Positions 15,171-58,321 of a stretch of DNA of 64,000 nucleotides are shown piece by piece. Under the pieces are notes generated by a model. It was not told the origin of the DNA. It made no database searches and worked only from the letters and a program-made list of their open reading frames with translations. Position numbers and translations under genes: made by a program. The first letter of the stretch is position 1, and every line of letters begins with the position of its first letter. Source of the stretch: Alternaria dauci (lineage: Eukaryota > Ascomycota > Dothideomycetes > Pleosporales > Pleosporaceae); NCBI RefSeq assembly GCF_042100115.1, contig NC_091273.1, forward strand, positions 1,488,001 through 1,552,000, read 5' to 3'.

Positions 15171-15175
15171 TTACC

Positions 15176-15830
15176 ATGCTAAAGGCGGTAGCGAGCTTGA
15201 GCTTGGGCCCCAACAACTGTAAATCTGTTGCTGCCTCCGCCTCAATCACTTTCCACACCAACACAGCCAACAACAAGGTAAGTAATAGCGAAAGCTAACT
15301 AAATGTACTTCGCTAACATGCTGCTCTTGTAGCTTCCGCAAGAAGGCTACAGCTACATTTTGTTGGTGAGCACGATGCCGGCCGCGCGCCCCAGGGCCTC
15401 ATTCGAGCCTGTACCGCCCAGAGCGCGCGGCATGGTGCTCACCATCGAATTCCAGACAGCCGGTGGCGACCACGGCGTCACTACCAGCTCCCCAGTCTTC
15501 CAAGACTCTACGCCCGCTTGTAGATTCTGTAAGTGTTCTTAATAACTTGAGTGCTTGTCCTTAACTAACTTCTAAACTGTTAGTCCGAAGACTCGATCTT
15601 CGAGAAAGGCGTCAGCTCTGCCTTGACCTCTCCCGCAAAGCCACCCCAATGCCAATCTGCTGATGCGACCGCAAAAGCGAACGCCAGCAAGGACATTCCC
15701 CCTCTACAAGAAGTTCAGCAGGAAGGAAGATGCCGAGGGCGAAGGCGACGATGAGGACGCATGGAAGATGTCATTCACCAGTCTCCTAAGCCGCTGCTTT
15801 GCCATCCCAACACTCAGCTTCTGGATCCAC
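15176..15830 (+). pseudogene. Degenerate multi-exon gene of unknown function (paralogue of 23.1-23.5 kb)
   Basis: From an ATG at 15176 an open frame runs 34 codons to a good donor (15278, gtaagt) and an intron ending ttgtag at 15332, with a branch-like gctaac near 15312. A second exon (15333-15528) ends at gtaagt (15529), followed by a pyrimidine-rich stretch and tag at 15581-15583. The third segment encodes SIFEKGVSS and then an acidic run (GEGDDEDAW, about 15740-15765) in another frame. The copy at 23.1-23.5 kb repeats the order: hairpin, gtatgt donor, SVFNKGASS, acidic end. I do not recognise the family. Frames do not join cleanly with the most obvious acceptor (the acceptor ending ccgaag at 15590 would restore the frame), so this may be a real gene with an intron I mis-set or a decayed copy. 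Confidence 0.35.
15365..15443. repeat. GC-rich imperfect hairpin inside the gene fragment
   Basis: Inverted repeat with outer arms ggtgagcac (15365-15373) and gtgctcacc (15435-15443) and inner arms gccgcgcg (15381-15388) and cgcgcggc (15424-15431). The same hairpin in stronger form lies at 23080-23176. Confidence 0.7.
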
Positions 15831-16723
15831 CGATCGGTACGCTTTATGTTTGATTCGCTCTGACTTTGGCTAATTGATCTATATGTAGTTATCAACATCA
15901 TATACGTCCCTTTGACTCATGCGAAGCCGAACCGTGGTTGCTATCATGGCCTTCCATGGTACTGCGATGACCTATAAGCGAGCCACACACAACTTCCGAT
16001 TACCACCGTCACCATCGTACAATATACATCTCGTCGTTCACAGGAGTTATCAACATATCGCTAGTCCACTTGGTCAAATAAGGGTCTGGCATTGTGTTGC
16101 AGTTTAATGCAAAGGTCTAGAGTTTTTGGAATGTTTCAAGACCTGGTCAGACGACGTGTTTGGGAAATACACCTGCATTGAGTTCAATATACTGGGTTAC
16201 TCAACCGCGTTGTTGCACTGCGTAAGCATCAACACTACTCCACCATAATTAAGACCTGGTCAGACAAGATATTCTTACCTAACCTGATTCACATTTATGG
16301 TGCACCGCGTGGCTAATTTTCTGCTACATTCTACCTCTGCAAAGTCCTCGCTATTACGATAGTTGTAATGTTGTAAATGACGATGTACTAATGCTACACC
16401 CGATTATGAAGCTTGCACCTGATGTCTAACTGGGCAATTGTAGAACTGTTTACTATATCCGTGTTTTAGTTACCGTCGCGCGACGCAGAAACCGGCTGCA
16501 TACTCCTGTTTTAGATACCACTACCGGACCCAGGATTCTAGAGAGGTGTTGTGAGAGGGAAGAGAGAACTATAAAGTGACTGTTTAAGCTACACGTATTA
16601 GCATTGTGATTAACATGTGCTGCATCGTCTTTATCCGATATTCGCCGAAAAGTACAAGGCAGCAAAGTTATCTGCCGCCTTACTCGTAGGTGCCGCCCTA
16701 ATGGTTTTGTTAGCTATCTAACT
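15831..16723. other. Island DNA without a recognised gene
   Basis: Normal-composition DNA with short open frames on both strands (60-70 codons at most) and no recognisable product. The direct repeat aagacctggtcaga occurs at about 16138 and 16251. A frame on the plus strand is open from 16610 into the small gene below but has no ATG before 16724. Confidence 0.4.
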
Positions 16724-16893
16724 ATGGGAAGTATATCAGATCCGCATACACTACAGCGACCCGAACTACAGGATTCGTGGTTGAAAAGGCTGCAAGAGGT
16801 TCTCCAGCGAGTCGTAGTATATGGTAAGTTGGGACACTATTAGAGTATAGCATATAACTAACGTAAACTTAGAAGTTAAGATTCGGAAACAAG

Positions 16894-17100
16894 ATGGCTC
16901 CCTCAGCGTCACACAAGACAAGTAAAAAATTCAAGTTTAACTCCCCGATAGTCATTGGAGTTGTTGCAACTATCTTTGTAATATTTATAGCACTGGTTAT
17001 TTGGTTTCTATGGAAGAGTCGTCGTCACGTAAAGGCATCAAATAAGATTCGCCAAGATGCCGTTGAGAGACTGGAGGCTAATCAGTTGTTATCTAAATAG
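16894..17100 (+). CDS. Small single-pass membrane protein, unknown function
   Basis: A 68-residue product. A basic N-terminus (residues 5-14, rich in K and S) precedes one strong hydrophobic segment at about residues 19-41 (PIVIGVVATIFVIFIALVIW), then a basic stretch WKSRRHVK and a charged helical tail ending EANQLLSK. The charge pattern suggests a tail- or signal-anchored membrane protein, topology uncertain. An upstream exon is possible: ATG at 16724, 31 codons, donor gtatat at 16817 and acceptor ttag at 16872 with branch actaac would join in frame and give 106 residues. The stronger gtaagt donor at 16824 would not keep the frame. No homologue recognised. Confidence 0.4.
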   Translation: MAPSASHKTSKKFKFNSPIVIGVVATIFVIFIALVIWFLWKSRRHVKASNKIRQDAVERLEANQLLSK

Positions 17101-17640
17101 ACAAAGATACCTAGGTATAGTGTTGTAAATGTGAAAGTCAGTCACAACTTCCGATACTCGTCCATCGTAGTGATAGTTTCGATATGTGTTGTAGCTGAGG
17201 CCCGGTGAGTTTGATATGATGTTGAGCTGTAATGTATAACATCAACAACATTACGAGATATGTCTTTCTGGTTGGCCAGCTCCTCGCCACCTATTCGCTT
17301 CTTGGTCGTTTGCCACCTAGGCAGCGGCTCTCGAGGTCACCTTCACTTCCACTGCGCCGACAGCCAGGTAGCCGCCCACCAGCTTGAGCTCAGGCCTCAA
17401 CGCAAGTGACTTTGTCGCATCTATCTTCATCTTTTTTCCACTCCATCACTAATGAACACGACGACGACGACGGCTTCACCATCTGCGGGTAAAGCAAGAA
17501 GATAACCAGCCTAGGTTTCTAGTAAGTACCTCGCAGAAACGATCTAACAAGAAGTAAAGCCCCTAACCTAAAGTTTGACACTCAGACTGTTTCCGCGCTA
17601 AGAGCGCTACTAACGCATAACCTACCCTACTAGAATTTAG
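17101..17640. other. Island edge, possible relic of the hairpin gene family
   Basis: Unique DNA passing into RIP DNA at about 17600. At 17325-17480 the order of words (cagcttgagctcaggcctcaacg, then ttttccactccatcac) resembles the start of the gene fragment at 15.18 kb, so a third decayed copy is possible but weak. No intact reading frame. Confidence 0.3.
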
Positions 17641-23475: not shown

Positions 23476-24170
23476 AGGTTCAGCTGGTACGTTTGTCTAA
23501 GGTGGCAACAATGCAGTTAGGTGATAGTTTCGCATTTGTTCTGCGAGACTTATGTACATCTTTTCTGATATGCAATATCTTTGCTTTGCTTATTACTGCG
23601 ACGCAAGATTTAAAGAGCTCTTGGTCATTCTATTACCATTGGCACAGTGACAACATCTCTTCCTAGAACCCCCCTAGCGCGGTACGGTAGTAATACATGG
23701 CGCCCAAAAGAATCAGACCAAGAACTCGTTACGAGCTCGTAGATAACAGAGATGAACAGCTCGCTGTACCATTGTGCAAGAGCTTGTGTGATAAAGCGCC
23801 TCCTTTGCCATAGAAAGTACAATACGAGAGAGGTCTGACCTTCAGCTGTGACCTCCTCAAAGGTCATGAGCCGATCTTTCTAGTGCACCTTCAAACGCTT
23901 ATTTTGATAAAGCGCTTGATATAATATCATTGTCAAATCCGCGGAATTTCGATATCTTGTGGTTGTACCGACCACTTGCAAAGAGGATATAACTTCCGGT
24001 AAAGGCCGCTTGCACTGGGTTGTAAACTCCAATATCTCACGAGCCGATAGGTTTTGGCTTCCGTACCTTATACGGCATCCGTGGTCATTGACACCAATGC
24101 AGGAAACAGATGCTCGAGTCCAGGGAGTTGACGTCGCTTCAGATGATGGCTCCGATCGTCCAATGCTATC
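23476..24170. other. Island DNA, no supported gene
   Basis: Open frames of 70-80 codons exist on both strands (minus 23625-23867, plus 23959-24174). None has splice support, a recognisable domain or a repeated copy to back it. Confidence 0.4.
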
Positions 24171-24570
24171 TTAAGCGTACTCCACTACCTCATCGGGTAT
24201 GGTCGACTCCCCCTTAGAGAGCTCTTCGACGGCTGGAATCGATATGGGGTGCTGGCTATCTTCGGTTTGAGAGGAATGTTCCTTGCAGTCGAAAGTGGCC
24301 GACTGGTCGTCGTCATTCCACTTCAGTTCTAAGTAGTATTCATCGGGGCTATATTCGCTGTTAGTCTCATTCAATTATGAGAGTGAACAATGCAACGTAC
24401 GCCGACTGATCTTGCACGGGGGTTTGTGAAGGTTTGCTATCATCCCACTCCGGTGAAAAGTAGAAGTCATCACTGCTTGCATGTTAGTCTCCCTCGATCA
24501 CAAAAGACAATAATACTAATTACGCTGACGGGTCTTGTACGGGAGTCTGTGAATGTTGAGAGGGGCTCAT
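24171..24570 (-). CDS. Small acidic protein built from duplicated exon-intron units, unknown function
   Basis: Three exons on the minus strand: 24570-24524, 24475-24401 and 24348-24171, total 300 bases, 99 residues. Both introns (48 and 52 bases) have GT donors and a gagactaac branch-site word, and both split an alanine codon after GC, so phases agree. Exon 1 ends SQTPVQDPSA. Exon 2 is exactly 25 codons and again ends SQTPVQDQSA. The starts of exons 2 and 3 also match (SDDFYF against PDEYYL), so the gene grew by tandem duplication of an exon plus its intron. The product is acidic (DDFYFSPEWDD, LELKWNDDD). Start chosen as the only ATG in frame; the frame stays open about 100 bases further upstream. 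No domain recognised. Confidence 0.5.
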
Positions 24571-24639
24571 CTTCGCTGCAGTTGCTGGAAGAGTAGTTGC
24601 CGCTGGGGCAGTCCTCTTTTTTATAGAGCAGTTATGATT

Positions 24640-25350
24640 CCTCCAAAGACAGACGCCGAGGGGGCTAACATAGCGGCCAGGATCCCCATGTCATCACAAG
24701 ATTCTGCCTTGTCTACACGGTGCATAGTGCAATGCAAGCCAATGGTTCTTGCTGATGCGAAGGTCAGGCATTAGACAAACAGATACATTTGGGCATACTG
24801 CCGACAGGATGAGCCTCAGTGCGGCAATACATTCATGCAGGACAGTGGGTTTGCCTTGCCAACGCTGCGCCCAGTGCCACAAGAGCCAATAGATTTTGAC
24901 ATTGTGTCACCAGGACTTCGAGAAGGGTATTCTCAGACGTGCTACTAACAATCTGAAGACAGAGCGGCAATGCATTCATGCATGATGCCGTGTCTACTTT
25001 AGAGCTACTCTGCTCGGAACGATGATGGCCAACGGTTACAGCGGCATAGAGCTCGTGATATGGAGACAGACGTATATTTGGACATGCTACCAACAGGTCA
25101 ACGACAGAGCGGCAACGTGTTCATGCAATGCATCGTGTTTGTCTTACGGCTGCTCTGCTTTGAACTATGCGAGCCAACGGATTCCACTGAATAAGGTTAC
25201 CATATGCGACCCAGAACCAAAAGGGCGCCTTGAGATCATCCTAGTGGTAAGACATTCATGCAGAGAGCACTCTCACTGGATGTTCTCGTCACAAGACCGC
25301 CAGTGCTGCGGCTTGAGATGCCGAACAATGATATCGATATTCATGCAATA
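24640..25350. repeat. Diverged tandem array, unit about 145 bp, 4-5 units
   Basis: The word gcggcaa..cattcatgca recurs at about 24821, 24966 and 25110, each time preceded by ct(a/g)c(c/t)(a/g)aca and followed by similar sequence (for example gccaacgg). Partial units lie at about 24670 and 25245. The array sits just upstream of the gene at 25444 and may include its promoter. Open minus-strand frames inside it shift between units and are probably by-products of the repeat. Confidence 0.6.
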
Positions 25351-25365
25351 ACCGCCCAAGGGGAC

Positions 25366-25373
25366 TTAAATAC
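25366..25373 (+). promoter_or_regulatory. TATA-like element of the 25444 gene
   Basis: ttaaatac lies 71-78 bases before an ATG in good context (accATGg), followed by a pyrimidine-rich leader. Spacing is usual for a fungal TATA box. Confidence 0.3.
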
Positions 25374-25443
25374 CCTTCGTTCGCTGTTCGACGAATTTCA
25401 TCCAACTTGCAACTCAACATCACCCTGACAACCTACGCTTACC

Positions 25444-27131
25444 ATGGCCGAAAAGGACGTAATGCATGTACTAAGCAACGAAGAGCTTATTAATCTCTGT
25501 GAAGAGATTCAGACACGTGAAGAATACAATACGGCAGGCCACATCGACGTATGCAAATCGACTATCTTGCTCTGTCACTGCTGATTTTCAACAAGGCTGA
25601 GAACCAATCTCGGGATAGAATCCTGGAGGAGATCCCGAATACTGGCAGAGTGCCCAGCGTATCATCCGACATGGCAACTCAACTTCCAAACTTTGCGGAT
25701 GATATTATGCCACCATACGAGAAGGAGACGACCGCCTCTCCTTCACCCCAAGCTCCACCATGCTTCTTGCTAGTTATGTCGACAATCCAATCTATTGAGA
25801 CTTTACCTCAGTACAGTCAAGGACCATTGCTAGCAATTTCAAAGACCTTGGTTTGTTTCGACAAGATTCCACAGTTTCCTCCTTCTACGACATCTCTGGT
25901 AGAGCCTGAAGTCATTGTTCCCTGTGCATCAGCCACAGTGCCAAACATCGAGGTCGAATCTTTAGAAGTACTACCACGGCCACCGCATGATGCAGTCGTT
26001 GAGACTACACCACCTCCTGTTATGGGTGGCGACACCATGGACTCTACTGTGCCTACGAAAAAGCGCAAGAGCTCTACGTCGAAGCAGACAGGCAGCCGGA
26101 AACGACTTGGCCGAGCTGGTCAGACCATCCCAGACGATTCAGACTTCGATTCATGTTCGATTTCCTCACCGCAGCCTCATGTCAGTGGAAGAGGAACGAG
26201 CACAAGGACTATCGACTACAAAGACCTTGAAAGAATAGCTGTAGCAGCCAAGACCTCTAAGCCTTCTGCCCGAGCCTCCGCAGAACACTCCACAGATATA
26301 CAAGACACGTCCACAAGACTATCTGAGAGTGTAACATCCATCAGCAGCGTGCGAATCACAATTGATCCTGAATCATCCGAGTCGGGAACAGCGCGCCGTC
26401 GTTCGCTAGGATTGCTAGCAGCTGATCGCGTCAAGGGGAGCCAAAGTAATCCAATAATAGTCGAGAATCTATCAGACGACGACCATGAGAACAACAATGA
26501 TTGCGGAGCTCATGTAGCATAGCACAAACAGTCAATTTTTATCGATCTGTCTGACGACGACGACGACGACGACGACGAGAATGATAGTCAAGATCTCCTG
26601 AACACTATCTCCCCGGACGATGAGCAATCACCTGCAGAACAGCACCAACAGCCATTACTCCACGATCAACATTCAGTTGATAGTTCTAGCCGCTGGTCGA
26701 AACGCGTACGCTTACAAACCTCGCGCCCAGGTTTTGTTGCATACGAGAAACTCCTCGACCGTAAGCTGGAAGGAATTGAGCAATCGTGGTTACTAGTACA
26801 GTCTCTCTGGATAGACTTCTACGAAGCCGCGAAGAGGCATGAAGGAGCTATGATGGTTGGCTTTACCACTTGTATCGAGCAGACTGCAAAGAAGTTCCAA
26901 TCCGGGAGAATCTCCGGTGACGATGCGCGCAAGTTGTCGAATTCGTGGGACCTTAGACGCTCAGTTTTGAAAGCGACGCTCGACACGGAAGAGGAGAAGA
27001 AGCGCTTGGATGATTTTTCTAGAGAACTAAAGCAGTTCATGGAAGCAACACAAGATTTGAGCGAAGAAGATTTTGGTATGCGGAGAGACGATGAAGATGA
27101 CATGGACTGGACTCTAGGTAGCATGAATTAG
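25444..27131 (+). CDS. Nuclear-type acidic/basic protein of unknown function, interrupted by one in-frame TAG
   Basis: Exon 1 is 25444-25548 (35 codons, MAEKDVMHVLSNEELINLCE). A 47-base intron (25549-25595, gtatgc..caacaag) leads in phase to exon 2. The frame is open to 27131 except for TAG at 26520-26522, giving 343 residues if it stops there or 546 codons in all. The middle is low-complexity, rich in S, T and P, with a nuclear-localisation-like KKRKSS..GSRKR near residue 190. Two hydrophobic-acidic motifs (PIIVENLSDDD and IFIDLSDDDDDD) flank the stop and resemble SUMO-interacting motifs. The C-terminal 200 codons are charged and probably helical (EEEKKRLDDFSRELK) and end DMDWTLGSMN. Coding character continues past the stop, and CAG to TAG in CpA context is the RIP change, so I read it as a recent nonsense mutation. 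No family recognised. Confidence 0.55.
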
Positions 27132-27198
27132 GCGTTGAATTGTTTGCTTAACACTATCTGAACGAAGGATGACAATGTAAACCACTCTGACTGCACAG

Positions 27199-27935
27199 CT
27201 ACTCGAAACTGCTTTGATGTTCTTCAATGTCTTGAATGAATCCCAGACGCCACGAAGCCTCATTATCCTTCTCAATTGGAGGTAACTGATTTTCCTGTGG
27301 CATCTTGTCCGCAGCTTTATCATCCTCCTTGTATCCTGAAGGCGGAGATGGACTCCTGTGGATTGGCTGGACCTGCCGCTATGTAAGCTAGAACTCGAAA
27401 GAAGCCGCACTAAGGAACGTTGCGAAGCATAGTTGGACGACGGTCTAAACTAAAGGCGAAATATTCCTCCTAAGGTCTTGTTCAGAAGAAACCGCATACT
27501 ACGTACCTGTGATTTCCGGAAATGGCGCAGCTCATCAGTCAAAGCTTCAACATCAAGCTTAAGATTTAAACTCTTAGACCTGTGTTCATCGAGTGCTGCG
27601 TAGGCTATACGACAGCTTTCTTACCACTGGGCGACCTCCTGGTTAAGCTTGTGTACCTAGGCTTCGAGTTCTATGCGACGAGCTAGTTCTGAGCATAGTC
27701 TACCACGTGTTTGATTGTGATTCCAGATCTCCCACTCTAAGACCTGCGCTAGCTGTAGATAGAGGTCTGGTTGATGCTGAGGCGAGGCGTGACTGCTTGA
27801 TGTTTGCAGTGGCCAGGTTGGAGTGCGGAGGTTTTCTGCAAGCCGATTGGTTACATCATAATGCTGATGACGTAATGGGTGTAAAGTGGGCCAGGTGACT
27901 GTGGGCCACGTAGCTTCAACTTGGTCCATAATCAA
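27199..27935 (-). pseudogene. Coiled-coil protein gene with two nonsense codons
   Basis: Minus strand, ATG at 27935 (or 27929). Exon 1 runs to 27507, a 128-base intron follows (27506-27379, gtacgt..acatag), and exon 2 ends at TAG 27199-27201. The product begins MDQVEATWPTVTWP, passes through a Q/S/H-rich part, then a heptad-like helical region (ARRIELEA, VHKLNQEVAQW, LNLKLDVEALTDELRHF), and ends in a hydrophilic tail (QENQLPPIEKDNEASWRL). Two stops interrupt the helix: TAG at 27657-27659 and TAA at 27621-27623. Both become glutamine if C-to-T changes are reversed, and the heptads then run on without a break. A 45-base intron from 27626 could remove the second stop, but then a coding-like segment would be lost. 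It lies convergent to, and 67 bases from, the gene above. Function unknown. Confidence 0.45.
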
Positions 27936-28490
27936 TAATGGTAAGGCTGATGCGATTGATAGACAGTGATGATGGACGATACCTTGGTACCGTGAATGAA
28001 GTTCTTGATCAAAGCTTTTATGGACACACCTTAGGTAGTTGTTACCTACCTAGGCACAAGTTCCCGTATCTGGACTTGGAAGACCGCCGCCGGTGAATGC
28101 CACCCGACTCCGGGATATGTCACCTGTTCTCTGCGAGCTCAAGCACGATATCGGAAGATCATCCCCTGAGCCTTTACGCAGCTTCCAGTATCATCCATAA
28201 TCTGGTAATCGTCCTTGCAGTGCTATACAACAAGATCAAAATTCTACCTAGGTAGCTTTCGTGACTCGTATCATGCAATATGGTATCAAAGGGTGTTGAG
28301 GAAGCATTTCAACGTCACCCAAGACCCCAGGTGCCTATAAAGCCAGGTCCGTCGCGGCTCACGGTACCAACGAAAGTAGCACTGTTGCAGCGAGCAATAG
28401 AGGACGATAAGCGTTGTTCTTTAATCTATTAAGAGATCCGCGAAAGTCCTTAGAGGACCTTAACCTAACAAGGCAACTTAGTGTAAGGTA
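27936..28490. other. Unique DNA at the island edge, no gene
   Basis: Normal composition, no long frame. The palindrome ctacctaggtag occurs at about 28247 and a variant at about 28045. RIP density rises after 28480. Confidence 0.5.
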
Positions 28491-46129: not shown

Positions 46130-47400
46130 ATGGCTAGCAACAATTCATTGCAGGTTGACGCGATTCTCGCTATTTTTCGTCGCTTCTCTCGTCTTGAAGA
46201 ACGGAACCAGCCAAACGAGGCACGTGGCTATAGTACGGCTGTCATTTCAAAGATCCAACTCAGTTTTGCATCCAAAAGTCCAATCCCCTTGCTCCTGCCT
46301 GCTGCCCCTTTCAAAAATTCTTGTGCAGACAAGGTCTTGGACACAAAGCACCCTGATTTTGGAGAAGAGTTGGGTTTGTCCAGGCTCAACCATCTCTGCG
46401 ATGAATTGACAAAGGTGCATCCCTTTGGCGCAGAACTTACAATGGTATCTGATGGCCCGGTCTACAATGGTAAGCTATGCTTGGTCAAGACTGACACCGC
46501 CTCGCTGATACCAACCATCCAGATTTACTCTGCATACCTGGCTCTGATTACTACGATTATGGTGTCCGGCTGCGCAAGATTGCCGCCGACAAAGGCTTTA
46601 CATGCATTCGATTTAGGCGTTTAGCCGATGTACTTGGACTAGCAGATGGCGACAGCCTGTCCAAGGACGAACATCTAGCACTAGCTAATACATGCCGAAC
46701 CGAGATGGAAGCGAGGTTCCTGCCGAAAGACGCGCAGATCAAGGAAAAGATCGAAACCCACAAAGACACAAATCTGACCTACCAGGGTTATGTTAAGCTT
46801 GCCGATGAGGACTTGCGATGGGGTCCGGATCTTGATCCACAGATCAGAGATGACAGGGAGAGGTACACCAAGGAGACCCAGAAGGTCGCAATCAGAATGA
46901 CTGAGCGCTTGCTCGTAAGTCCGTCTGCTCGAGTGTTATCCAATTTTTTTGTCTAAAATCACTTTTCCTAGGCTTATGAAGGAGCTTTAGAAGCGGCTTT
47001 TCCGAATCACATTAGGCTTTCCATTCATCGATCAACTGGAGAAGCCAAGATACCCATACCCTTGATACCACAGCCTGAGGGCTTTGGGTTCCAGCCCTGG
47101 CACTGCTGTGTTGTGGTTACCGCTCAAGGGCGGTACCTGGCTGCTCATTCAAAGGACTATCGAGACAACAAGAACTTCGAGGTCATTGAAAAACATGGAA
47201 GACCCTTTTTAATACGTGAAAGACATGACGACTTTAATTGGCCAGAACACATCAGACTACATCATACTTACGGAGGCAAAATAGTTGTAGAAAACATCTC
47301 ACCAGAGAAAGCGGAACTAAATGCAGAATTCAAGCTAAAACTTGCTAACCTAGCTTTGAGGTTTGGGAGTGTGGAAGTGCGTGGGTTTCAAATTCAGTAG
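46130..47400 (+). CDS. Isocyanide synthase (DIT1/PvcA family), copy 1
   Basis: Three exons, 46130-46469, 46523-46914 and 46972-47400, with introns of 53 and 57 bases; 1161 bases, 386 residues, no breaks. Family enzymes turn an amino acid (tyrosine, tryptophan or valine in known cases) plus ribulose 5-phosphate into an isonitrile. Seen here in order: DKVLDTKHPDFGEELGLSRL (residues about 65-85), SDGPVYND across the first intron (about 108-115), the YDYGVRLRKIAADKG helix, IPQPEGFGFQPWHCCVVV (about 270-290) holding the PWH motif, AQGRYLAAH, and YGGKIVVEN near the end. Length fits a single-domain synthase without a fused dioxygenase or NRPS. It converges on the amidase, 87 bases apart. Intron positions match those of copy 2. 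Substrate cannot be read from sequence. Confidence 0.87.
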
Positions 47401-47487
47401 GAAACTCCAGCCTTGCTCTACTGGTTCATCATTTGATGCACCAATTAATAAAGTATGCCAAAATATGCAGCTACTTGTCCCGACCGC

Positions 47488-49536
47488 CTATTTCTTTTGC
47501 AGTATTTCCCCGCCATCTACACTACTTGCTCCGGCTGCTGAAGCTCTTAGTACGCCTCTCTGATAAAGCTTGGTGACCAAGTTCAACAGAACGGAATCGC
47601 ATCCTTTGGCGACCATCAGGTTTATCGATATAGGCAAATATTCTACGTGATTTGTTATCGTGGAGTAATACGACATCTGACCGACTGTGTCGTGCTCGTT
47701 AGTACAATGGTCTAGACTGACTAGCTCAGTGCATAAACTCTACTTACTCGGGATAGTTATATCAGGAGTTTCTCCCATGACACTCCAATATTGGGTTGCA
47801 AAGCCCGAGGGCGGTGTAGGTGGGTTTCTGTACGTGCTTCTGTATTGCACGCTTAATGGAGTAAAGTAGGCCAAGACCGCGGAAGTACAAGTCTCGTCAT
47901 CTTCCTTGAGGACGTTCTGATGGAACCAGTCCATGAAAACGGTCTTGTTCCTTAGCGCATTGGTCCAGGCCGCTGGTGGCTGCGCATCTCCGAATGCCCA
48001 GCGCACTAAGGGAACAGGGTTAACAGCGGGTAACCTTCCATCATGGAGGAGTCGATAGTCGGTGTAAAAGGGATCGCGCACCAGTTCTGCCTGACGCTGG
48101 CTTACGATGGTGGTGTAGGTATTGTTCATCAACGACCCTAGATCTTCTGGTGCCGACGGCGGTCGGGTCTCCTGCCAGGTTGTAGTTATGTTGAACCAAT
48201 CGGTCGTCCCGTTGCCAAGCACACCTCTCAAACCATGCCAGAATTGGTCGAGAACCGCAATTGTCTCGTTCGTCAAGTTAACTGCCGGGTAACTTTCAAT
48301 CAGCAACTGAGTGGGAAGAGAGTCATGAGATCTGTTGCGAGGGAGCGCGTAGAGTGCAGCAGCGGCATCGTGAAGAAGGAATGGATCCCTTGCAATCAGC
48401 GCGGCAGTATCCAGCTCCGGAGCTAGTGGTAGCGTGAATTGTAACGGCGCAGCGCCGTGTGACGGCCGTAAGCCATATACGCCGTTTACCCGAGCCGGAC
48501 CGCGAATGCTCCCACCTGTATCCGACCCTAATGCAAAATCAAGCCATCGATACGAGGCCACACTCGACCCAGCTCCTGCGGACGAAAAGTTTGGATCTTG
48601 ATAGCCGTCCCCACGCGGATTGAAGGGCGAGTGGTAGTCAACCCAGTCTGCCGTTGCGTATTCTCCATTAGCAAACTGAGCAGTCTTTTGTTTGCCTACT
48701 ATAATCGCCCCTGCGTCGAGCAGTCTTTGAACTGACGGTGCTGTTGTATTGCTAGGGGGATACAAGTTGTACCAAGCTCGATTTCCATTGCCAGTCTTGA
48801 TGCCGGATATGTCAAAGATGTCCTTGACGCCCAGACGCATGCCGTCAAGTGGTTTCATCGCTGTTGGTCTGTAGTAAAGCCGAGATGGGACTGCGATCGT
48901 AAGACCATGTCCCGGTATATGCGCCGGAAGAACCGAATGCTTGCCAGTAGGGTCGGTGTACATAGACTCGATAAAGGACTCTTGATGATCGGAAAAAAGC
49001 CGATATGCCCGGTGAATGCTACCTTGAGATGACAGGAAATAGGGGCCTTCGGGAAGGGTCTCATTCAGCATTTTTGAAGGGAAAAGAACAATTCTTTTGC
49101 CCTCAGATTGTTCAGAAGCAGCTTGAGAACTTCCATTCATACTCTTTGTTGCTTGAAGGTACACCACTAGGTAATCATCAGTACGCAACACGGATTGAAA
49201 CCCATAGCTTCAGGGAAGCATACCGTTTGCGAACCCTTCGCTCCACACATCATCAATCGTCCTGAAACGGATGAAGTCTCGCTCTAGGCCGGCCTCTGAA
49301 AAGTCACCTGACTCGGTAGAAATCACGGTCAACGCCGCAAAAGATCCGGTAGCAAAGTGCTTTGCTCCGAGAAGTGGAGTTTTAGAATCATCTAGGAGAG
49401 ACCCAACTGCATCTGGGGGGATCCAATAATCGATGTCGTCAAGACGTGCGGTGACACTAGTGACGTGTGGACCTTGCTGGAGTGACAAGGCAGCAGGCAA
49501 TAGAAATGTCCAACAAATTGCGAATGAAAAAGCCAT
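47488..49536 (-). CDS. Secreted amidase-signature hydrolase
   Basis: Minus strand, three exons: 49536-49224, 49166-47748 and 47684-47488; introns of 57 and 63 bases, the second with branch tactaac; 1929 bases, 642 residues. Starts with a signal peptide ([20 protein letters not shown]). A roughly 150-residue N-terminal extension precedes the amidase domain. Catalytic elements: lysine in [10 protein letters not shown], the cis-serine region [11 protein letters not shown], and the nucleophile region [17 protein letters not shown], so the Ser-cisSer-Lys triad is present. Several N-glycosylation sites (NET, NTT, NRT, NGT) fit secretion. The end, IPIGQMSYYS across the last intron, is typical of the family. 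Acts on an amide C-N bond; substrate unknown. In this setting it could cleave an N-formyl or other amide derived from an isonitrile, but that is inference and its secretion argues for an external substrate. Confidence 0.9.
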
Positions 49537-49748
49537 TCTTGAGGCGCAAAAGATTTGTGAAGAACGTGAAGCTGTGTATCTATCACTTTACTTATTTAAT
49601 CGTTGCCCAAACCCCCCAAACCCCTGCTTTGTGCTTCGTTCAATTAGTTCTCCTTCAGGCTAGTCAGTCAGATGTCGGAAATGAATCACGGCGTATAAAC
49701 TGGTCAACGGGGAAATGAAAAAGATAGGTTAGTTAAGCATAGACCTAT
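49537..49748. promoter_or_regulatory. Amidase upstream region, left part of a split divergent promoter
   Basis: About 212 bases of normal DNA between the amidase start and the transposon. Before insertion it would have joined 53614-53990, giving about 590 bases between two divergent genes. It ends in the 14-mer aagcatagacctat (49735-49748) that is repeated at 53600-53613. Confidence 0.5.
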
Positions 49749-50264
49749 AATTTTGATTTTTTTTGTTTTCTGCAAGTGGGGGGATATCATCAAAATAAAA
49801 CTTTAAAAAAGTAAAAAGTAGCTATCCCTCTACTTATTAGTTATAAAAGTTAATAAAAAAAGATAAAGTAATAACGCGATTTAAACGCTAGACTAATTAG
49901 TGTTTTATAGTATTAAAGCTCTAACGTCTATATATAAAAACTAAAGTTAAAAAAATTTACTAAAGGTAACTAAAAAAGACACCTATTAGAAACCTTAGTA
50001 GAGGTCTAATAGGGATTACTAGTATTAGCTAGTAATATAATTATAATATATTATAAAGGGAGGAGGATATAGTATATTTACTATAACTAAAAGAGGGTTA
50101 TATAAAAACCTAGCTACTTCTAACCTTTATACTAATACTAACTTACTTTAAGTATCCTACTATATATAATTAAATCGTACTATATATAATTAAGTTATAC
50201 TATATATAATTTAATTACTATTAATACTACCTAGAGATTAAGAAGCTCTATTATATTATAGTAA

Positions 50265-50390
50265 TTATAGTAATTATAGTAATTATAGTAATTATAGTAA
50301 TTATAGTAATTATAGTAATTATAGTAGTTATAGTAATTATAGTTATAGTTATAGTTATAGTTATAGTTATAATTATAATTATAATTCTCT
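50265..50390. repeat. AT-rich microsatellite, 9-bp and 6-bp units
   Basis: Repeats of agtaattat (about nine) followed by agttat units, inside the composite insertion. Confidence 0.8.
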
Positions 50391-53034
50391 ATAAGTAGCT
50401 ATAAAGCCTATATATTAGTAGTAGTAGTACCCTTATATATTACTACTATAGCTATTATAGCTATTATACTATACTTATTACTATTATATACCTAAATCCT
50501 ATCGCGTTATATCCTAAGCCTTCTATATTATTAAATTAATTATTTACTACCTATACCTATCTTAGCTCCTTAATAATATCTATAATATATAGTAGCTAGT
50601 CCTTAAAGTCCTTATTATAGACCTCCTCTAAGTACCTATACTACTTATTAGTTATTATAATACTAGTAACCTATATATTATATATACACTAGACTTATAT
50701 ATCCTAAAGAAGAGTAAATAACTTATTAGCTTTATTTATACCTTTATTAGCTAGTATAATAGTAGTACTTATAAGGAGGACCTTAGTAATAAATACTAAG
50801 TCCCTAAGTATATAGTTAAATTCTTTTTTAGTAAACCTATATAATAGGCTAAGGGATTAAATATAAGTCTAGAACTTATACTTAAGGTTACTTTTAAGAG
50901 GGTTAATCTTAATAATAACTTTATACTTACTATACTACTTAATAGTTACTACTATAGTTACTAAGAGGGTTACTAGGCCCTCTAAAACTAGGCGCTTTAT
51001 ACTTATAATAATATTATATATAATAACCTTTATATTAGAGATACTAGAGTTACTAGAGTTACTAGATATACTAGATATATTAAAGTATAGGAGTTAAGAG
51101 AAGAAAATTTAAGTTACTTAAATATTTCTTTATTCTTAAGTACTATAGTTATAAGCCTAGATATAAGCTATAAACTATAGTTTAAAAACTTCTCTTCTCT
51201 CTAAACTCCTCTTCTCCTTAATATTACTATAACTTTTTAGAACTACTTAAAGGTTAGGGCTTTAGCTTTAACTTATTTCTTATTAAATATATATAGCTAT
51301 ATATAGTAAAACTATTAGCTTTAGCCTTTATAGACCTTTTTTTTATTATAGTATATTTAGAGACTTTTTTTAAAATAAAGTACTAACTAAGTAACTATAA
51401 GCTTATAATTACATTTAGTACTACTAGTATATATAGTATATTATAAACACTAGATACTAAAGATATATAATAGTATTATATACTTACTAGAGATAAGATA
51501 ATTTATAGTAACCTTCTAACTTATATACTATCCCTTACTATCTTCTACTATCCTCTACTATCCTTTACTATATTTACCCTTTATAACCTTTATAGCTACC
51601 CTTTATAGCTACCTTTTATAACTACTACTACTACCTCTACCTCTTCTTAAGAATAACTAACTAGCTACTTATAGTATAGTTACTACTACTATTTAATAAT
51701 TAGCTTTAGTTAGAGGAATATTAATAGTAGTATAGTCTACGCCTTATTCTTTTATCCTTATAATATCTCTTTAAATTCCCTCTCTCTAAGCCTAGGATAC
51801 TAGTCTTTAAATACTCTTTTAATATTAATAGCTTAGTAGTATAGCTATCTCTTAGTCTTTTTACTTTACTTACTAAAGGTTAGGTAGGTAAGGTAGCTAA
51901 ATATAAAGAGATTAATAAAGTAGTAAGTATTAGTATAGATAATCTCCTTATACTTTATAACCCTCTTTAGATACTATATTCTAGTCTATTTATAAGTTAC
52001 TTTTATAATAATACTACTAGCTTTAAACTTATTAATAAGCTATTAGCTAATAGATTTACTATTACTAAGGATTTAGAGTATTTAAGGTATTTACTCTTCT
52101 AGCTCTTTATTAACTACTAGATTTAACTCTAAGGTATATAGAGTAGTATAGCTTATATTATTTAAATTCAATAAGTTTAGGGCTCTTTACTAAAGAAAGT
52201 ATACTGGCCTAGCTAAATAGCTATAATAAGTTAACTTAAGGGATATATATATTAATAAATAATTTAATTTAGTTATATATAGTAAGATACTTAAAGTTAA
52301 TTTTAGTATAAAGGTTAAAAGTAGCTAGGCTTTTATATAACCTCTTCTTAGTTATAGTAAATATACTATATCCTCTCTCCCCTTTATAATATATTATAAT
52401 AGGGATTACTAGCTAATAGCTAGTAATCCCTATTATATCCTCTTAAGGTTTAATAAGTACCTTTTTTTTAACTTTAGTTTTTATATATAGATGTTAGAGC
52501 TTTACTATAAAATACTAATTAGTCCTATATTTAAATTATATTATTACTTTATCTTTTTTATTAACTTTTATAACTAATAAGTAGAGGGATAGCTACTTTT
52601 TACTTTTTTAAAGTTTTATTTTATTAATACCCCCCTACTTACAGAAAATAAAAAAATTATTAGTAATATTATTATATAGGTAGCTATTAGGTAGAGGAGG
52701 ATATAGATAAGGAGGAAGGGAGAGGAGCTAGTATATATAGCTTATATAGATAGCTACTATAGCTATAAGCTCCTTATATTTAGCTACCTTATTATTCTTA
52801 AATAAGGTACTTTTAGTTAAGAAACTAAGAACTAGTTATACTAGTAGATAAAGGATATTAAATAAGTATTAGAGGAGTAGTATCCTAGGCTTAGAGAGAG
52901 GGAATTTAAAGAGATATTATAAAGATAAGAGAATAAGGTATAAATAGTACTAATACTAATATTCTTCTAATTAAAACTAATTACTAAATAATAATAGTTA
53001 TATTATAGGTAACTAGTTAGTTATTCTTAAGAAT

Positions 53035-53210
53035 AAGTAGTAGAGGTAGTAGTAGTAGAGGTAGTAGTAGTAGAGGTAGTAGTAGTAGAGGTAGTAGTAG
53101 TAGAGGTAGTAGTAGTAGAGGTAGTAGTAGTAGAGGTAGTAGTAGTAGAGGTAGTAGTAGTAGAGGTAGTAGTAGTAGAGGTAGTAGTAGTAGAGGTAGT
53201 AGTAGTTATA
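53035..53210. repeat. 15-bp minisatellite inside R1
   Basis: About eleven near-identical units of aggtagtagtagtag. Read back before RIP the unit would be aggcagcagcagcag. Shorter versions are in the other R1 copies (for example 33300-33345). Confidence 0.9.
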
Positions 53211-53613
53211 AAGGGTAGCTATAGTAAAGGATAGTAAAAGATAGTAGAAGATAGTAGAGGATAGTATATATATTAGAAGGTTCCGTCTTATCTCTAGTAG
53301 GTGTATAACTACTATAAAGACTCTAAGTTAGCTATATACGCTAATAAAAGCCTTAGCGTTAAAATAAGATATATTACGTTAAATCTAAGGCGCTAGATAT
53401 AACACGTACCTAAATTCTAGGTCTTAGTAACTTACTACTATTATATATCTTTAGTGTCCGGCGTTTGTGACACACTACGTGCGTCCTAGCGGTGCTAAAT
53501 ATAGGTATAAGCCCGCGGTCACCTAGTTAGCGCTTTATCTCAAAAAAAGTCTCTAAACGTGCTGTAACAGCAAAAAAACTCTGCAAAGGCTGAAGCCAAA
53601 AGCATAGACCTAT

Positions 53614-53990
53614 TACGAGCGTTGCTGACGCTAAGCTCTGCTACCTCTATACCCCTGTTTAGTGGGTTTACCTACGCGCTAGTATGGCCGCCCCTATTTT
53701 TCTCATGGCCGGATGACATGTCACCTCTGCACGAGCGACCCTCGGATTCTTCCCATGAATCTGGAGCAGGGATAAAGATGATCATAAAATTCATTTACGA
53801 TGTTCTTTCTAGACCTGATTTCGCAAACACGAGAAGATTGAACAGGGCTGTAAAGGTCAGGCTCAATTCTCGCTTGTCTGCCAAAGCCGATCGCCAACCC
53901 CGCCCGATTTCGGTTATTTCTCGTCTCAAGCCTTTGAATTCGACTTCATCACAAAACGCTGGATGCTTTACTGAAGGACAGGCGCCGAAA
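53614..53990 (+). promoter_or_regulatory. Upstream region of the DJ-1/PfpI gene
   Basis: Normal-composition DNA between the transposon and the chosen start. A frame in phase with the gene is open from 53622, which would add 123 residues (MLTLSSATSIPLFSGF..). I treat it as untranslated because DJ-1 proteins begin close to the first strand, as the 53991 start does, but an N-terminal extension cannot be excluded. Confidence 0.45.
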
Positions 53991-54712
53991 ATGGCTCAAC
54001 AAAACACGGACAGTAAGGAAAAGTCTTCCACTAAGCACAAATTTCTTCTGACATAATCGAAGACAAGCCTGTAAACTTTGGCATCGTTTTGTTTCCTGCT
54101 TTCCAGGCACTTGATGTGTTTGGACCCCTTGACGCGCTCAATGTGCTCTCTCGTACAAAACGGATGAACCTACACATCATTGCCGCATCCATGGAACCCG
54201 TCTCAACAAAGCTGCACGCCAAACAACCTGTAGAATCAAATTTTGAGCAGCTAATATTGCCAACTCACACTTTCGAAACCGCGCCAGCGCTTGATGTTCT
54301 CATAGTACCTGGCGGTCAGGGGACACGTGCATCGGATATAACGGGTACCGTGGATTTTATCAAGAAGGCATACCCTTCACTTCAGTACCTGATAACCGTC
54401 TGTACAGGCTCTGGACTCGCAGCCCGCGCTGGAGTTCTAGATGGAAAGAGGGCAACCACAAACAAGCTTTCTTGGGATGCTACGATTGCCTTGAGACGGG
54501 AAGTGAACTGGATACACAAAGCTCGTTGGGTACAAGACGGAAACATCTGGACCTCCTCAGGCATCAGCGCTGGAATTGACGTGACATTTGCATGGATGGA
54601 GAAGGTCTACGGTTCCAAGATAGCGAAGGAAATCGCGAACAGGATGGAGTACACCCGTGTGACAGATCCAACCAAAGATCCCTTTGCAGATCTCTATAGT
54701 CCTCCAAACTAG
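53991..54712 (+). CDS. DJ-1/PfpI superfamily protein, probable isonitrile hydratase
   Basis: Exons 53991-54012 and 54063-54712 around a 50-base intron (gtaagg, branch ctgac, end cgaag); 672 bases, 223 residues, the usual size for isonitrile hydratase. N-terminal FGIVLFPAFQALDVFGPLDAL has the strand-loop with LD..GP found in this subgroup. DVLIVPGGQGTR follows. The nucleophile elbow TVCTGSGLAARAGVLDGKRATT carries the reactive Cys in the CTG context and the ATT that follows in hydratases, and TSSGISAGIDVTF is the conserved C-terminal signature. The bacterial enzyme adds water to an isonitrile to give an N-formamide. Sitting between two isocyanide synthases, a role in self-protection or product turnover is the natural inference. 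Other DJ-1 activities remain possible. Its stop codon overlaps that of the convergent transporter gene. Confidence 0.87.
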
Positions 54713-56170
54713 CTCAATTTTGCCCTTGACCTGTTTATGGCAACTGATACGTAGGCCAAACAACCTGCCAATAGCGTGAACCCTGCAAACAACTGAGCAT
54801 AGAGAAAGCTTCCGTTATTGAGCGCGACGAGTTGACCGCCAATGGGTGGCCCAGTGAGACACGCGATGCTCACGAAGCCGAAAACCATACCGACCTTGGT
54901 GCCTACCCTTGTAGGATCCGTCGACAAGTCACTGACTGCAGCTGGGAACAGGCTCTGGGTCGCATTCGCTGCAATACCATAGATGACAGCCCATGCGAAC
55001 TGTCCCTCAATGGATGATACACCTATCCAACCAAACAGTAAAATTCCACTGACACCAGCCGCAGGAATCAGTGTGTTCAGTATCCCAAAGTATCTATCCG
55101 CCAAGAGCGCTGGGATGACCCGACCGAACAAACCGACACCGTTCACTACAACGATGGAAAGTAGTGACTGGGTCTGCGAGAATTCGAGTACTGTACGTCC
55201 GAATGTGCCAATCTAGTCTCATTAGTAAATAGGCGTGCATCGGCTGCCATGACAGAAGGCAAAAAAGACTCACGTAAAAGTAAGCGAAATACAATCCCCA
55301 CAGGGACAGGAATGAGCCAATGACGAACAGGTTGAAGGAACCTTCCTTGAGTGCTCTTGCATCGAAAAACGACCGCGGTTTGCGGACTGGAACACGTGTC
55401 TTCGTAAAGGCGAGGATGGTCGCAGCATTGAACGTTATAACGAAAGCCATAATGAAGACCGTCCATCGGAAGCCGTGACGATGAAGACAAAAGTAGGCAA
55501 TGAGTGGGAAAATCATACCACCCGTGGAAGAGCCACAGGTAGCTAGAGAAACGGCCAGCGCTCTATGTCTCTTGAAATATGTCGGGAGGATGGAAACGAT
55601 CGGCGCGAACAAAAAGCCGTGTCCAAGGCCACTGCAGAGGCCTTGTGAAAGAAACAACTGCCAGTACTCTGTCGAGATAGCTGTCATGAATGCCCCTAGC
55701 ACCTGCAGTATGCAGCCGAGAACGAGGCAATGTCTGAGATATCCCATATCAACAGTCCTCCCGGAGAACACGCCGACGAAGTTGAGTAGAAACATCTGCA
55801 TGCCGCCTATCCAAGCGATATCTGATGATGATCTCCCCAGTTGTTCAACGTAGTATTGCTGAAACAAGCCGAAACTGAATGTAGTGTTAGAGCCGACTAC
55901 CATCGGTAGTGACGTTTCCGCCGCCGGTGTAACTCACGATGTAATATATCCCCAGCAGTTGAAGATAACCAAGTGGCCCATGATGACTTGCGTCCACGCC
56001 GAAAGACCTCCATCAGGAATATCGTCTTGTGCATGACCTATGTCTGGTAACCTTGGATTCCCCAGAGAACGGGATTCTTGCCTCTCAGTACCTGAAGGCT
56101 CGAGGACAACCCCGGCCTGTTCGTGAGGAGATAGATGGCTACCCATCGTTGTATATTGCGTGCGATCCAC
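54709..56170 (-). CDS. MFS transporter, monocarboxylate-porter-like
   Basis: Minus strand, exons 56170-55938, 55874-55274 and 55212-54709; introns of 63 bases (branch ctaac) and 61 bases; 1338 bases, 445 residues, complete. After a hydrophilic N-terminus of about 50 residues, the first membrane helix region reads WGYITSFGLFQQYYVEQL, the fungal MCT-like motif. GRTVDMGYLRH is the loop 2-3 motif, followed by GLCSGLGHGFLFAP, a central loop with KTRVPVRKPRSFF, then the second half with NGVGLFGRVIPALLADRYFG and CLTGPPIGGQL. About 12 membrane helices. Likely a plasma-membrane or vacuolar carrier for a small acid or metabolite. In this cluster, export of the isonitrile product is the obvious guess. 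It shares a 736-base divergent region with isocyanide synthase 2. Confidence 0.9.
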
Positions 56171-56906
56171 TGCAGCTGGACCAGGCTGATCAGTTCAGAC
56201 TGAAAGGGTAATCTAGGGAGATCTCAACGAACTTTAAATTCCAGGCTTAGCTTGCAGTTCCGAATGTAGTGAAAAGCTTCCGGGGGGGGAGGGGGGGGGG
56301 TTCCTGCAGAGACAAGACGAAAGTTTGAGTTGACGATGCCAATAAAGAAGGCGTTCAAAGGCTGACACCCCAATGTGAACGGGAGGTAAAATTTGGTATC
56401 AGCATTCGGGCTTATTGACGGACGAATGACAAATACAGTGTTGGCGCGCGTGCCGAGCCGCTTTCCTTACGAGAACAGCTACTTTCTAGAGTTATAGAAA
56501 TAAGTATAAGTAAGACTACCTTCAAAATGGTAAGTCTAGATCTCTGTACCTTGTATATTGTGTACATAAGGAAGGTAACTAGTGTATATTAATTAAAATT
56601 GTCCGTGTCGCTAACGCCGCGCCGGAGTTGTGCCTTTTAGGGGACGAAGATGTGACGATTGAGAGTCGGGACCGCATGCAGCTGCAGTCTTACCGGAATA
56701 TTACCTTTTCTAGGATTGATTTGAGATAGAGATTTCTTCGGGCGGAAACGAACAGACAGATTCTTAGTAGCTGTTTAGCTGTCTGTTAAATAGGCTCATG
56801 TTTCCATAACTAACGCTATATCTGGCACATATATACTCCGAAACACTATTCACATTAACTTTCCAATCAAATCCACTTATCACATATCCTTGTTTGTGCT
56901 TCGAAC
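56171..56906. promoter_or_regulatory. Divergent promoter region, transporter and isocyanide synthase 2
   Basis: 736 bases without a gene between divergently read genes, so probably a shared control region. It holds a G tract (56282-56300, G8-A-G10), an AT-rich stretch around 56480-56600, and a TATA-like catatatac at 56828-56836, about 70 bases before the synthase ATG. No specific factor site can be named with confidence. Confidence 0.5.
56282..56300 (+). repeat. Poly-G tract
   Basis: Eight G, one A, ten G in the divergent intergenic region, about 110 bases before the transporter start codon on the other strand. Single-copy in the window. Confidence 0.9.
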
Positions 56907-58321
56907 ATGTCTCTTTCCGCCAGTATCGTCGCATCCGAAAAGCCGACCTTCATACCAACTTTCGTAGCCGAGCACGGACACGGCCTCAAACCCGCGTCGC
57001 TCTCGAACGATCACTTGTTGAAGGACATCTATAATGGATGGCCTAATAATTGGCAACCAGACCGCACTGGAGAAGTGCCAAATCAGCAGGATGTGCAGGT
57101 CGACGGGATAGTCACTGCAATCATGGATATCCTAGAGCGATTCAGCCTCCAACAGCACGGCAATGACGTTTTCATGGGAAGGGAGGTCTTCTCGCCAAGG
57201 GTTCGCCATCACGTCTCCAAAAGTCAATATATCCCCATGGTGTTGCCGGCCTTCCCGGCCAAAAGCATCAATACCCAAGACAAAGTTCTGGGAACCAGCC
57301 CTGATCTTGGCGAAGGACTTGCTTTGGATAGATTGAACGACCTTTGTAATCAGATTGGTCAAATCTATAAGCCTGGTATTGTGGTTATTATCGCAACTGA
57401 TGGAGCTTGCTATAACGGTCAGTACATGATTACGAACCGAAAGACACTTGCTAACCATGAAAAAGATCTCACAGGTGTGACAAATGAAAACCTTTGGGAA
57501 TATGGAGCCACACTACGTAAGATGGTAACAGAGAAAGGCTACGATCGCATCGAGTTTGTCCGCATCATGAATCTGTTGGGTTTACACACGGACGAACACA
57601 TCTCCAAAGAACAGTATTTTAGTTTGCTCGAACCTTCACGAGTGGAACTAATGTCCAGGTACGGCGATTCTGACTTTGATGCAACTTATTGCATCAAGAA
57701 CGACCCGGACTACAAGTCGACCTATGACGGATATGCCAAGTTTTTGAAGAAGGACCTTGCCTTCAGCCCCTTCAAACAAAATATAGCCAGCGGAAGGAAG
57801 TGGAGGACCTTGGTACACGAGACGGCGAAATCAATGATTGCTCGTGGCGTGGTATGTCACTCCCCAATTCAATCGAGGCACTATATGCTGACACAGAACT
57901 CTAGGCATTTGCAGCGCTCATCCGGGAGAAATACCCCGATTGTGTGCGTTTGTCTATCCATCCCTCGACCGGTCTAACGAAGATATCGATGCCGCTAATA
58001 CCTCAGCCCGACTCCTTGTCCATGACACCTTGGCATTGTGCAGTAGCCGTAGACGTGCATGGGAGATTTACAACAGCACACGCAGGAGTCCTGCGGGAAA
58101 CCCATGATCTCGGGCTCAAGAATGGTGAGCCGTACTGCTTCCGCGAGCGATCCCCATTGTATTCATGGGATGCAAAAGTTGAATTCAGCCATCTTTACGG
58201 GGGAGGGTTAATTGTACACAATACAACGGGTCAGGCTAAAGAGTCATTATCTGATAGAGATCGTGAGAAGCTGGTTACTCTGTCTCTTTTGCAGGGAAAG
58301 GTTGTTCTGCAAGGATTCTAA
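56907..58321 (+). CDS. Isocyanide synthase (DIT1/PvcA family), copy 2
   Basis: Exons 56907-57417, 57466-57851 and 57905-58321; introns of 48 bases (branch gctaac) and 53 bases; 1314 bases, 437 residues. The first intron is a multiple of three and stop-free, so an unspliced reading looks open but would break the motif TDGACYND. Motifs in order: DKVLGTSPDLGEGLALDRL (residues about 127-145), TDGACYND (about 165-172), LWEYGATLRKMVTEKG, IEFVRIMNLLGL, IPQPDSLSMTPWHCAVAV (PWH motif, about 345-362), HGRFTTAHAG and HLYGGGLIVHN. It has an N-terminal extension of about 65 residues compared with copy 1. Same intron positions as copy 1 (inside the N-D pair and before AF/AY), so the two descend from one gene, but protein identity is only moderate and substrates may differ. 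No fused domain. Confidence 0.89.

Follow-up and report, generated by a model that had tools for sequence, protein, structure and literature searches.

A stretch of 64,000 nucleotides from the genome of Alternaria dauci (Pleosporales, Dothideomycetes; 34.9 Mb, 10 contigs), described as the causal fungus of carrot leaf blight (PMC9114375), was analysed for a candidate isocyanide biosynthetic cluster. We refer to this whole stretch, C2:1488001-1552000, as the window, and positions are those of the window unless a contig is named. The candidate cluster consists of two isocyanide synthase (ICS) genes, ICS1 and ICS2, and between them the genes for an amidase, a DJ-1/PfpI protein and a carrier of the major facilitator superfamily (MFS) resembling monocarboxylate transporters (MCT) (Table 1). 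The models were built from splice signals and agreement with relatives, and the preliminary description of five complete genes in alternating orientation, with their coordinates, proved correct: the spliced models have no internal stops, all nine introns are of the GT...AG type, and each of the five proteins scored more than twice the curated cut-off of its Pfam family. In the DJ-1 gene a single intron of 50 bases (54013-54062) was needed because the span, at 722 bases, is not divisible by three. The tetranucleotide CTAG at 54709-54712 holds the overlapping stop codons of the DJ-1 and carrier genes.

The five genes (GC 0.47-0.51, TpA/ApT 0.63-0.80, (CpA+TpG)/(ApC+GpT) 1.13-1.37) are unmutated islands of normal DNA, and their surroundings are saturated with repeat-induced point mutation (RIP). 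The three AT-rich blocks, one on each side of the genes and one in the gap between them, had GC 0.25-0.26, TpA/ApT 1.79-1.95 and (CpA+TpG)/(ApC+GpT) 0.03-0.10. About 3.7 kb of RIPed DNA divides the cluster into two gene blocks, at ~46.0-49.7 kb and 53.5-58.4 kb. Pseudogenes or RIP damage were excluded by the intact gene models, and bacterial contamination by the introns and the fungal closest relatives.

Table 1. Features of the locus (window positions) and the other PF05141 genes of the genome (contig positions)
Feature	Position	Strand	Exons, domain scores, composition
ICS1, monodomain isocyanide synthase, 386 aa	46130..47400	+	exons 46130-46469, 46523-46914, 46972-47400; PF05141 261.7 bits
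Amidase-signature enzyme, 642 aa	47488..49536	-	exons 49536-49224, 49166-47748, 47684-47488; PF01425 105.6 bits
RIP-saturated AT-rich stretch, splits cluster in two	49800..53500		GC 0.249, TpA/ApT 1.95, (CpA+TpG)/(ApC+GpT) 0.05
DJ-1/PfpI protein, putative isocyanide hydratase, 223 aa	53991..54712	+	exons 53991-54012, 54063-54712; PF01965 62.6 bits
MCT-like MFS carrier, 437 aa	54709..56146	-	exons 56146-55938, 55874-55274, 55212-54709; PF07690 105.5 bits
Divergent upstream region common to carrier and ICS2, 760 bp	56147..56906		between both start codons
ICS2, monodomain isocyanide synthase, 437 aa	56907..58321	+	exons 56907-57417, 57466-57851, 57905-58321; PF05141 297.1 bits
crmA-like ICS-NRPS (non-ribosomal peptide synthetase)	C4:185033-189707		PF05141
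ICS-TauD, beside MCT-like carrier (34% to window carrier)	C5:46354-47223		PF05141
ICS, cytochrome P450 (P450) ~1.4 kb away	C7:614090-615065		PF05141
Further ICS domain	C6:1628885-1629746		PF05141

Properties of the encoded proteins

Both synthases belong to PF05141, as the preliminary description had proposed, with a profile match over the domain and the conserved residues in place. Neither matched the dioxygenase domain PF02668, and both are single-domain by Pfam. In an alignment of 57 of the 126 ICS matches with the two window proteins, ICS2 retained nearly all family-conserved residues, and at the columns conserved in at least 90% of the other synthases ICS1 retained every Lys, Asp, Glu, Arg, His and Trp. 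An otherwise invariant Phe is lost in ICS1, and at another site Asn was found in 12 of the 13 ICS1-clade proteins versus Ser in all 41 other aligned synthases; three of five proteins in the Penicillium/Talaromyces sister group of this clade have Asn at the same site. The fold of an ICS1-clade member is unchanged. In a tree calculated by a quick method from 53 of the 126 matches, the stem branch on the ICS1 side was long (0.71), and the tree shows ICS1 and ICS2 to be paralogues of ancient origin and sister to each other.

The public A. dauci model of ICS2 (P0002, 313 aa) is identical to ours over 71% of the ICS2 length and has the same two introns, ending early in exon 3 with the C-terminal part absent. 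No A. dauci protein was found for ICS1 among the 25 matches listed from at most 8000 candidates, nor for the DJ-1 gene among the best 120 of 4466 matches, and therefore both genes seem to be absent from the public annotation or differently modelled there.

The DJ-1/PfpI identity of the third gene product and its two motifs were confirmed, the latter as VCTGS from residue 120 and SSGISAGID from residue 172. In isocyanide hydratase, Asp17 is reported as the acid/base and Cys101 as the nucleophile (PMC10971408); these residues of InhA align with Asp25 and Cys121 of the window protein, and their equivalents were invariant in 37 of 37 aligned fungal relatives. Scored against solved structures, the single sequence gave 132.6 bits with 3mgk, an uncharacterised ThiJ-family protein, 77.4 with InhA and ~24 with human DJ-1, and a profile of 37 sequences gave 184, 106 and ~25 respectively. 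The protein is closer to InhA than to human DJ-1 or PfpI, and 3mgk is its nearest solved relative, well ahead of InhA. A function as isocyanide hydratase is likely. The hydratase label given earlier was borne out as to a position nearer to InhA than to DJ-1 or PfpI and the Asp and Cys in place, and is kept as putative given the lead of 3mgk.

The amidase carries the amidase signature with a GSDTGGS-type motif, and its Lys219, Ser299/300 and Ser324 align with solved amidases, in positions that we take to be those of the Lys-Ser-Ser triad. Its N-terminus resembles a signal peptide, as judged by eye, and there are 11 N-glycosylation sequons. A predicted protein of a Colletotrichum sp., P0123, is 66% identical to the window amidase over 410 aa in its first part (556 bits) and is an ICS1-type sequence in its second part, which suggests that the two genes are neighbours in that Colletotrichum. 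The carrier scored 84.4 and 72.1 bits with the NCBIfam lactate/monocarboxylate carrier models, both under the cut-offs.

The closest paralogue of the amidase in the genome lies at C2:4964848-4966405 (two matching pieces, of 60% and 41% identity) and matched P0123 with 66% over 207 (277 bits) and 38% over 280 (171 bits). A relative of the DJ-1 protein, with 50% identity and three TGA inside the match, was seen at C2:4877263-4877982, about 87 kb from this paralogue, both toward the end of C2.

Linkage and history in other fungi

The linkage raised in the preliminary description is conserved in other fungi for ICS1, ICS2 and the DJ-1 gene. ICS1-type and ICS2-type genes were found on one contig in eight other fungi, three of them with consecutive locus tags (Fusarium decemcellulare NM208_g5974/g5975, Lecanicillium saksenae NLG97_g5215/g5216 and Pestalotiopsis fici PFICI_08075/08076); the other pairs are those of Boeremia exigua, Stachybotrys elegans, Colletotrichum spinosum, Talaromyces stipitatus and C. 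graminicola (P0023 and P0077, the latter within the ICS1 clade). A DJ-1 relative shares a contig with an ICS2-type gene in seven cases (A. panax G6011_00702/00703, L. saksenae g5213, B. exigua, C. destructivum, Dactylonectria, C. orbiculare and one further genome) and with an ICS1-type gene in three (B. exigua, L. saksenae and one further genome). These counts come from 54 of the 101 ICS2 matches, after removal of dioxygenase fusions, of bacterial sequences and of other rows that were distant or had no name, 23 of the 25 ICS1 matches and the best 120 of 4466 DJ-1 matches, and contigs of equal size were taken as one contig. Closeness is indicated where tags are adjacent or contigs short (16 and 20 kb), and whole chromosomes indicate the same contig only. 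Linkage of ICS1, ICS2 and DJ-1 relatives is kept in several ascomycetes, and since the main genes have their relatives together in other fungi, they probably represent a real pathway. The only Alternaria species named among the 101 ICS2 matches were A. panax and A. dauci.

In the ICS1 tree the two Pleosporales proteins were nested in a group that also held Lecanicillium and Stachybotrys, both Hypocreales (100/100). The ICS2 tree had the same arrangement with weaker support (88/88), and in the DJ-1 tree, from 32 of the best 120 matches, Paramyrothecium stood next to the Pleosporales (95/91) and Lecanicillium elsewhere. Placing all Sordariomycetes together was rejected for ICS1 (p-AU 1.2e-05), less strongly for ICS2 (p 0.026) and not for DJ-1 (p 0.131); these one-clade tests were chosen after the first tree had been seen, so that the p-values are optimistic, and the sampling is thin. 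Apart from a few, including Lecanicillium, Stachybotrys and A. dauci, the class labels of the tree species are ones that we assume. There is thus a hint of Hypocreales-Pleosporales transfer in the ICS trees, which an old duplication followed by loss could also explain.

A candidate two-synthase cluster and its alternatives

We think it probable that the locus represents a small fungal gene cluster for isocyanide biosynthesis, of the sort that has two monodomain synthases, and that it comes closest to gene cluster family (GCF) 1 of Nickles et al. In their 2023 preprint, GCF 1 is described as having two ICS backbones, monodomain and falling into two clades that stem from one ancestral duplication, with a small clade placed between the two and a scattered distribution (PMC10153163). 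The window likewise has two monodomain synthases from one ancestral duplication whose linkage has been kept, as seen from the tree and the shared contigs, and compared by the ICS pair alone we infer that it belongs to GCF 1. As a difference, the main text of the preprint contains neither 'amidase' nor 'Alternaria' (PMC10153163).

In such a cluster, judging from the protein families, ICS2 would join the nitrogen of an amino acid to a carbon of ribulose 5-phosphate, giving an alpha-isocyano acid. ICS1 would do likewise, possibly with a different amino acid or an intermediate as substrate in view of its Ser-to-Asn change. The MCT-like carrier would export the alpha-isocyano monocarboxylate, the DJ-1 protein would hydrate stray isocyanide in the cytosol to an N-formyl amino acid, and the secreted amidase would cleave an amide outside the cell, the simplest candidates being the formamide or an acylated product. 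To our knowledge, N-substituted formamide deformylase is not an amidase-signature enzyme. Both isonitrile hydratase and this deformylase are reported from bacteria (PMC5391958), and a sequence of hydratase and then amidase is therefore a reasonable idea.

The neighbourhood C2:1478001-1582000 (the window with 10 kb to the left and 30 kb to the right) was searched for tailoring genes and regulators, none of which had been visible earlier, and this still held. TauD gave no match (25/25 candidates scored), and no P450 was found among 92 of 197 candidates scored and no Zn2Cys6 regulator among 150 of 236, searches that short-exon genes could escape. Among the matches listed on C2, the nearest P450 is at 1672519, ~126 kb past ICS2, and the nearest Zn2Cys6 domain at 1616558, ~70 kb past it. 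Since no P450, TauD or NRPS gene turned up nearby, we expect that the product is probably a simple one, and it may be metal-binding.

Among known systems, the 4G cluster of Aspergillus fumigatus, with icsA and icsB (Lim et al. 2018), is described as having two ICS genes and no canonical synthase, as here, but its IcsB is an ICS-dioxygenase (PMC5974471) whereas both window synthases are single-domain. The xanthocillin (xan) cluster of the same fungus also combines an ICS with a ThiJ/PfpI isocyanide-hydratase homologue, XanA; its XanB, however, is an ICS-dioxygenase and its XanG a P450 (PMC5974471), and neither type was found here among the candidates scored. In having no dioxygenase domain, the window synthases genuinely differ from both clusters. 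Yeast DIT1 is given as a PF05141-type enzyme with tyrosine as substrate (PMC5974471), whereas no DIT2-like P450 stands beside ICS1 or ICS2 among the 92 of 197 candidates scored. Isocyanide chemistry is also described in Alternaria, where brassicicolin-type compounds are ascribed to the crm pathway, but CrmA is an ICS-NRPS-like protein (PMC9381783) and A. dauci carries a separate crmA-like gene on C4. The preliminary description had called the combination of genes unusual, and this did not hold: in a survey of ICS clusters ~60% had an MFS gene and 21.1% an isocyanide hydratase (PMC10153163), so that both are common, and two-ICS clusters are published in GCF 1 and in A. fumigatus (PMC5974471). 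The last was the sole relevant paper among the 10 of 25 matches listed in a phrase search for clusters of two synthases.

Several observations weigh against the cluster as we read it. In Dactylonectria the ICS1-type and ICS2-type genes are on different contigs, many linkage rows have no partner, and in A. panax, which has the DJ-1 and ICS2 genes, ICS1 was not among the 25 matches listed from at most 8000 candidates. Closely similar DJ-1 proteins are common in basidiomycetes too among the matches listed, and thus the DJ-1 family is not tied to these ICS genes. The amidase link outside A. dauci is one gene prediction, P0123. Among the four upstream regions no 7-mer recurs in every one, and words of 8 or 9 bases are shared by at most two. 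The pattern TTTGC[TG]C, presumably of the copper type, had a single match, located 14 bases upstream of the amidase start, which chance could produce and for which there was no control. Sharing is not wholly absent, however: nine 10-mers each occur in two upstream regions against a shuffle mean of 2.0 (0/100 shuffles reach nine); they derive from a 14-base word found, inverted, upstream of the amidase (49536, - strand) and the DJ-1 gene (53991, + strand), an 11-base word in the amidase and carrier/ICS2 regions, and two 10-mers. These words may be repeat-derived.

Perhaps the DJ-1 protein makes a final N-formyl product rather than serving in self-protection, although we find this somewhat unlikely. 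XanA is credited with N-formyl xanthocillin derivatives and yeast Dit1 is described as leading to N-formyl tyrosine (PMC5974471), whereas the self-protection role of hydratases is presented as a hypothesis by the authors of the survey (PMC10153163), and the latter point is not decisive.

It is also conceivable, and to us rather doubtful, that the pathway consists of the two synthases and the DJ-1 protein only, with the amidase and the carrier as chance neighbours. The genome does hold family members of both, an amidase at C2:4.965 Mb (60% in part) and carriers with up to 44% over part, and P0123 is a single predicted protein. Nevertheless that protein joins a close amidase relative to an ICS1-type sequence, the carrier gene overlaps the DJ-1 gene at its stop codon and has an upstream region in common with ICS2, and MFS genes are given as the commonest companion of ICS genes (PMC10153163).

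We hold it unlikely that the DJ-1 protein carries out some different reaction of its superfamily, DJ-1/PfpI, and owes its linkage to another cause. The lead of 3mgk over InhA and the wide distribution of similar proteins in fungi would fit such a role, but the invariant Asp and Cys equivalents, the DJ-1 relatives on contigs with ICS genes and a score for InhA far above those for human DJ-1 and PfpI argue for the hydratase. Equally improbable in our view is a larger scheme, in which a horizontally shared pathway, with substrates split so that ICS1, marked by the Ser-to-Asn change throughout its clade, takes another amino acid or intermediate than ICS2, would give two isocyanides or a mixed product, and a two-step route by the DJ-1 hydratase and the secreted amidase from isocyanide through formamide to amine would recycle or disarm the product inside and outside the cell. 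Least of all do we expect that ICS1 has ceased to make isocyanides and is a divergent partner or regulator of ICS2, as its long stem branch, Asn and lost Phe might suggest, since the retained charged, His and Trp residues and the unchanged fold in its clade speak against this.

Clusters of this kind, with two monodomain synthases, have already been described; new here are the occurrence in A. dauci, the link to an amidase, the Asn that marks ICS1 and the hint of transfer between Hypocreales and Pleosporales. A paper on the NRPS and polyketide synthase genes of A. dauci has neither 'isocyanide' nor 'isonitrile' in its main text (PMC9114375), and a literature search gave no paper joining isocyanide, amidase, Colletotrichum and biosynthetic gene cluster. 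Isocyanides are copper binders and antibiotics; a published study describes brassicicolin A, from Alternaria brassicicola, as phytotoxic and synthetic valine isocyanide as antibacterial (PMC9381783). The sister synthases have long been kept as pairs, which raises the question of why there are two, the Ser-to-Asn site of the ICS1 clade is a residue worth study, and the amidase points to a further, so far unexplored step that would follow hydration.

Other synthase genes and the surrounding DNA

A genome-wide search with PF05141 gave 11 exon matches (11/11 candidates scored), which correspond to six genes, and no second two-ICS cluster was seen among these six. The four outside the window are given in Table 1.

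Window positions 1-45000 contain six open reading frames (ORFs) of at least 110 aa, the two longest without a Pfam match. Two islands of higher GC lie within the RIPed region, at 14500-17500 and 23500-28000; in the second, the longest ORFs are of 333 and 202 aa and matched no Pfam family. A perfect tandem repeat with a 15-base unit (11.4 copies, 53036-53206) lies beside the DJ-1 gene, and shorter versions were found at 31357, 33313 and 39581, all in RIPed places; these sites look as if one repeat family had been inserted several times. Flank ORFs of at least 110 aa are retroelement gag-pol or overlap gag-pol, and one of 232 aa, antisense to gag-pol, matched no Pfam family. Near-alike long gag-pol ORFs of a Ty3-type retroelement flank the region on both sides in opposite orientation (L012:2-4815 and L010:9656 to L011:5762).

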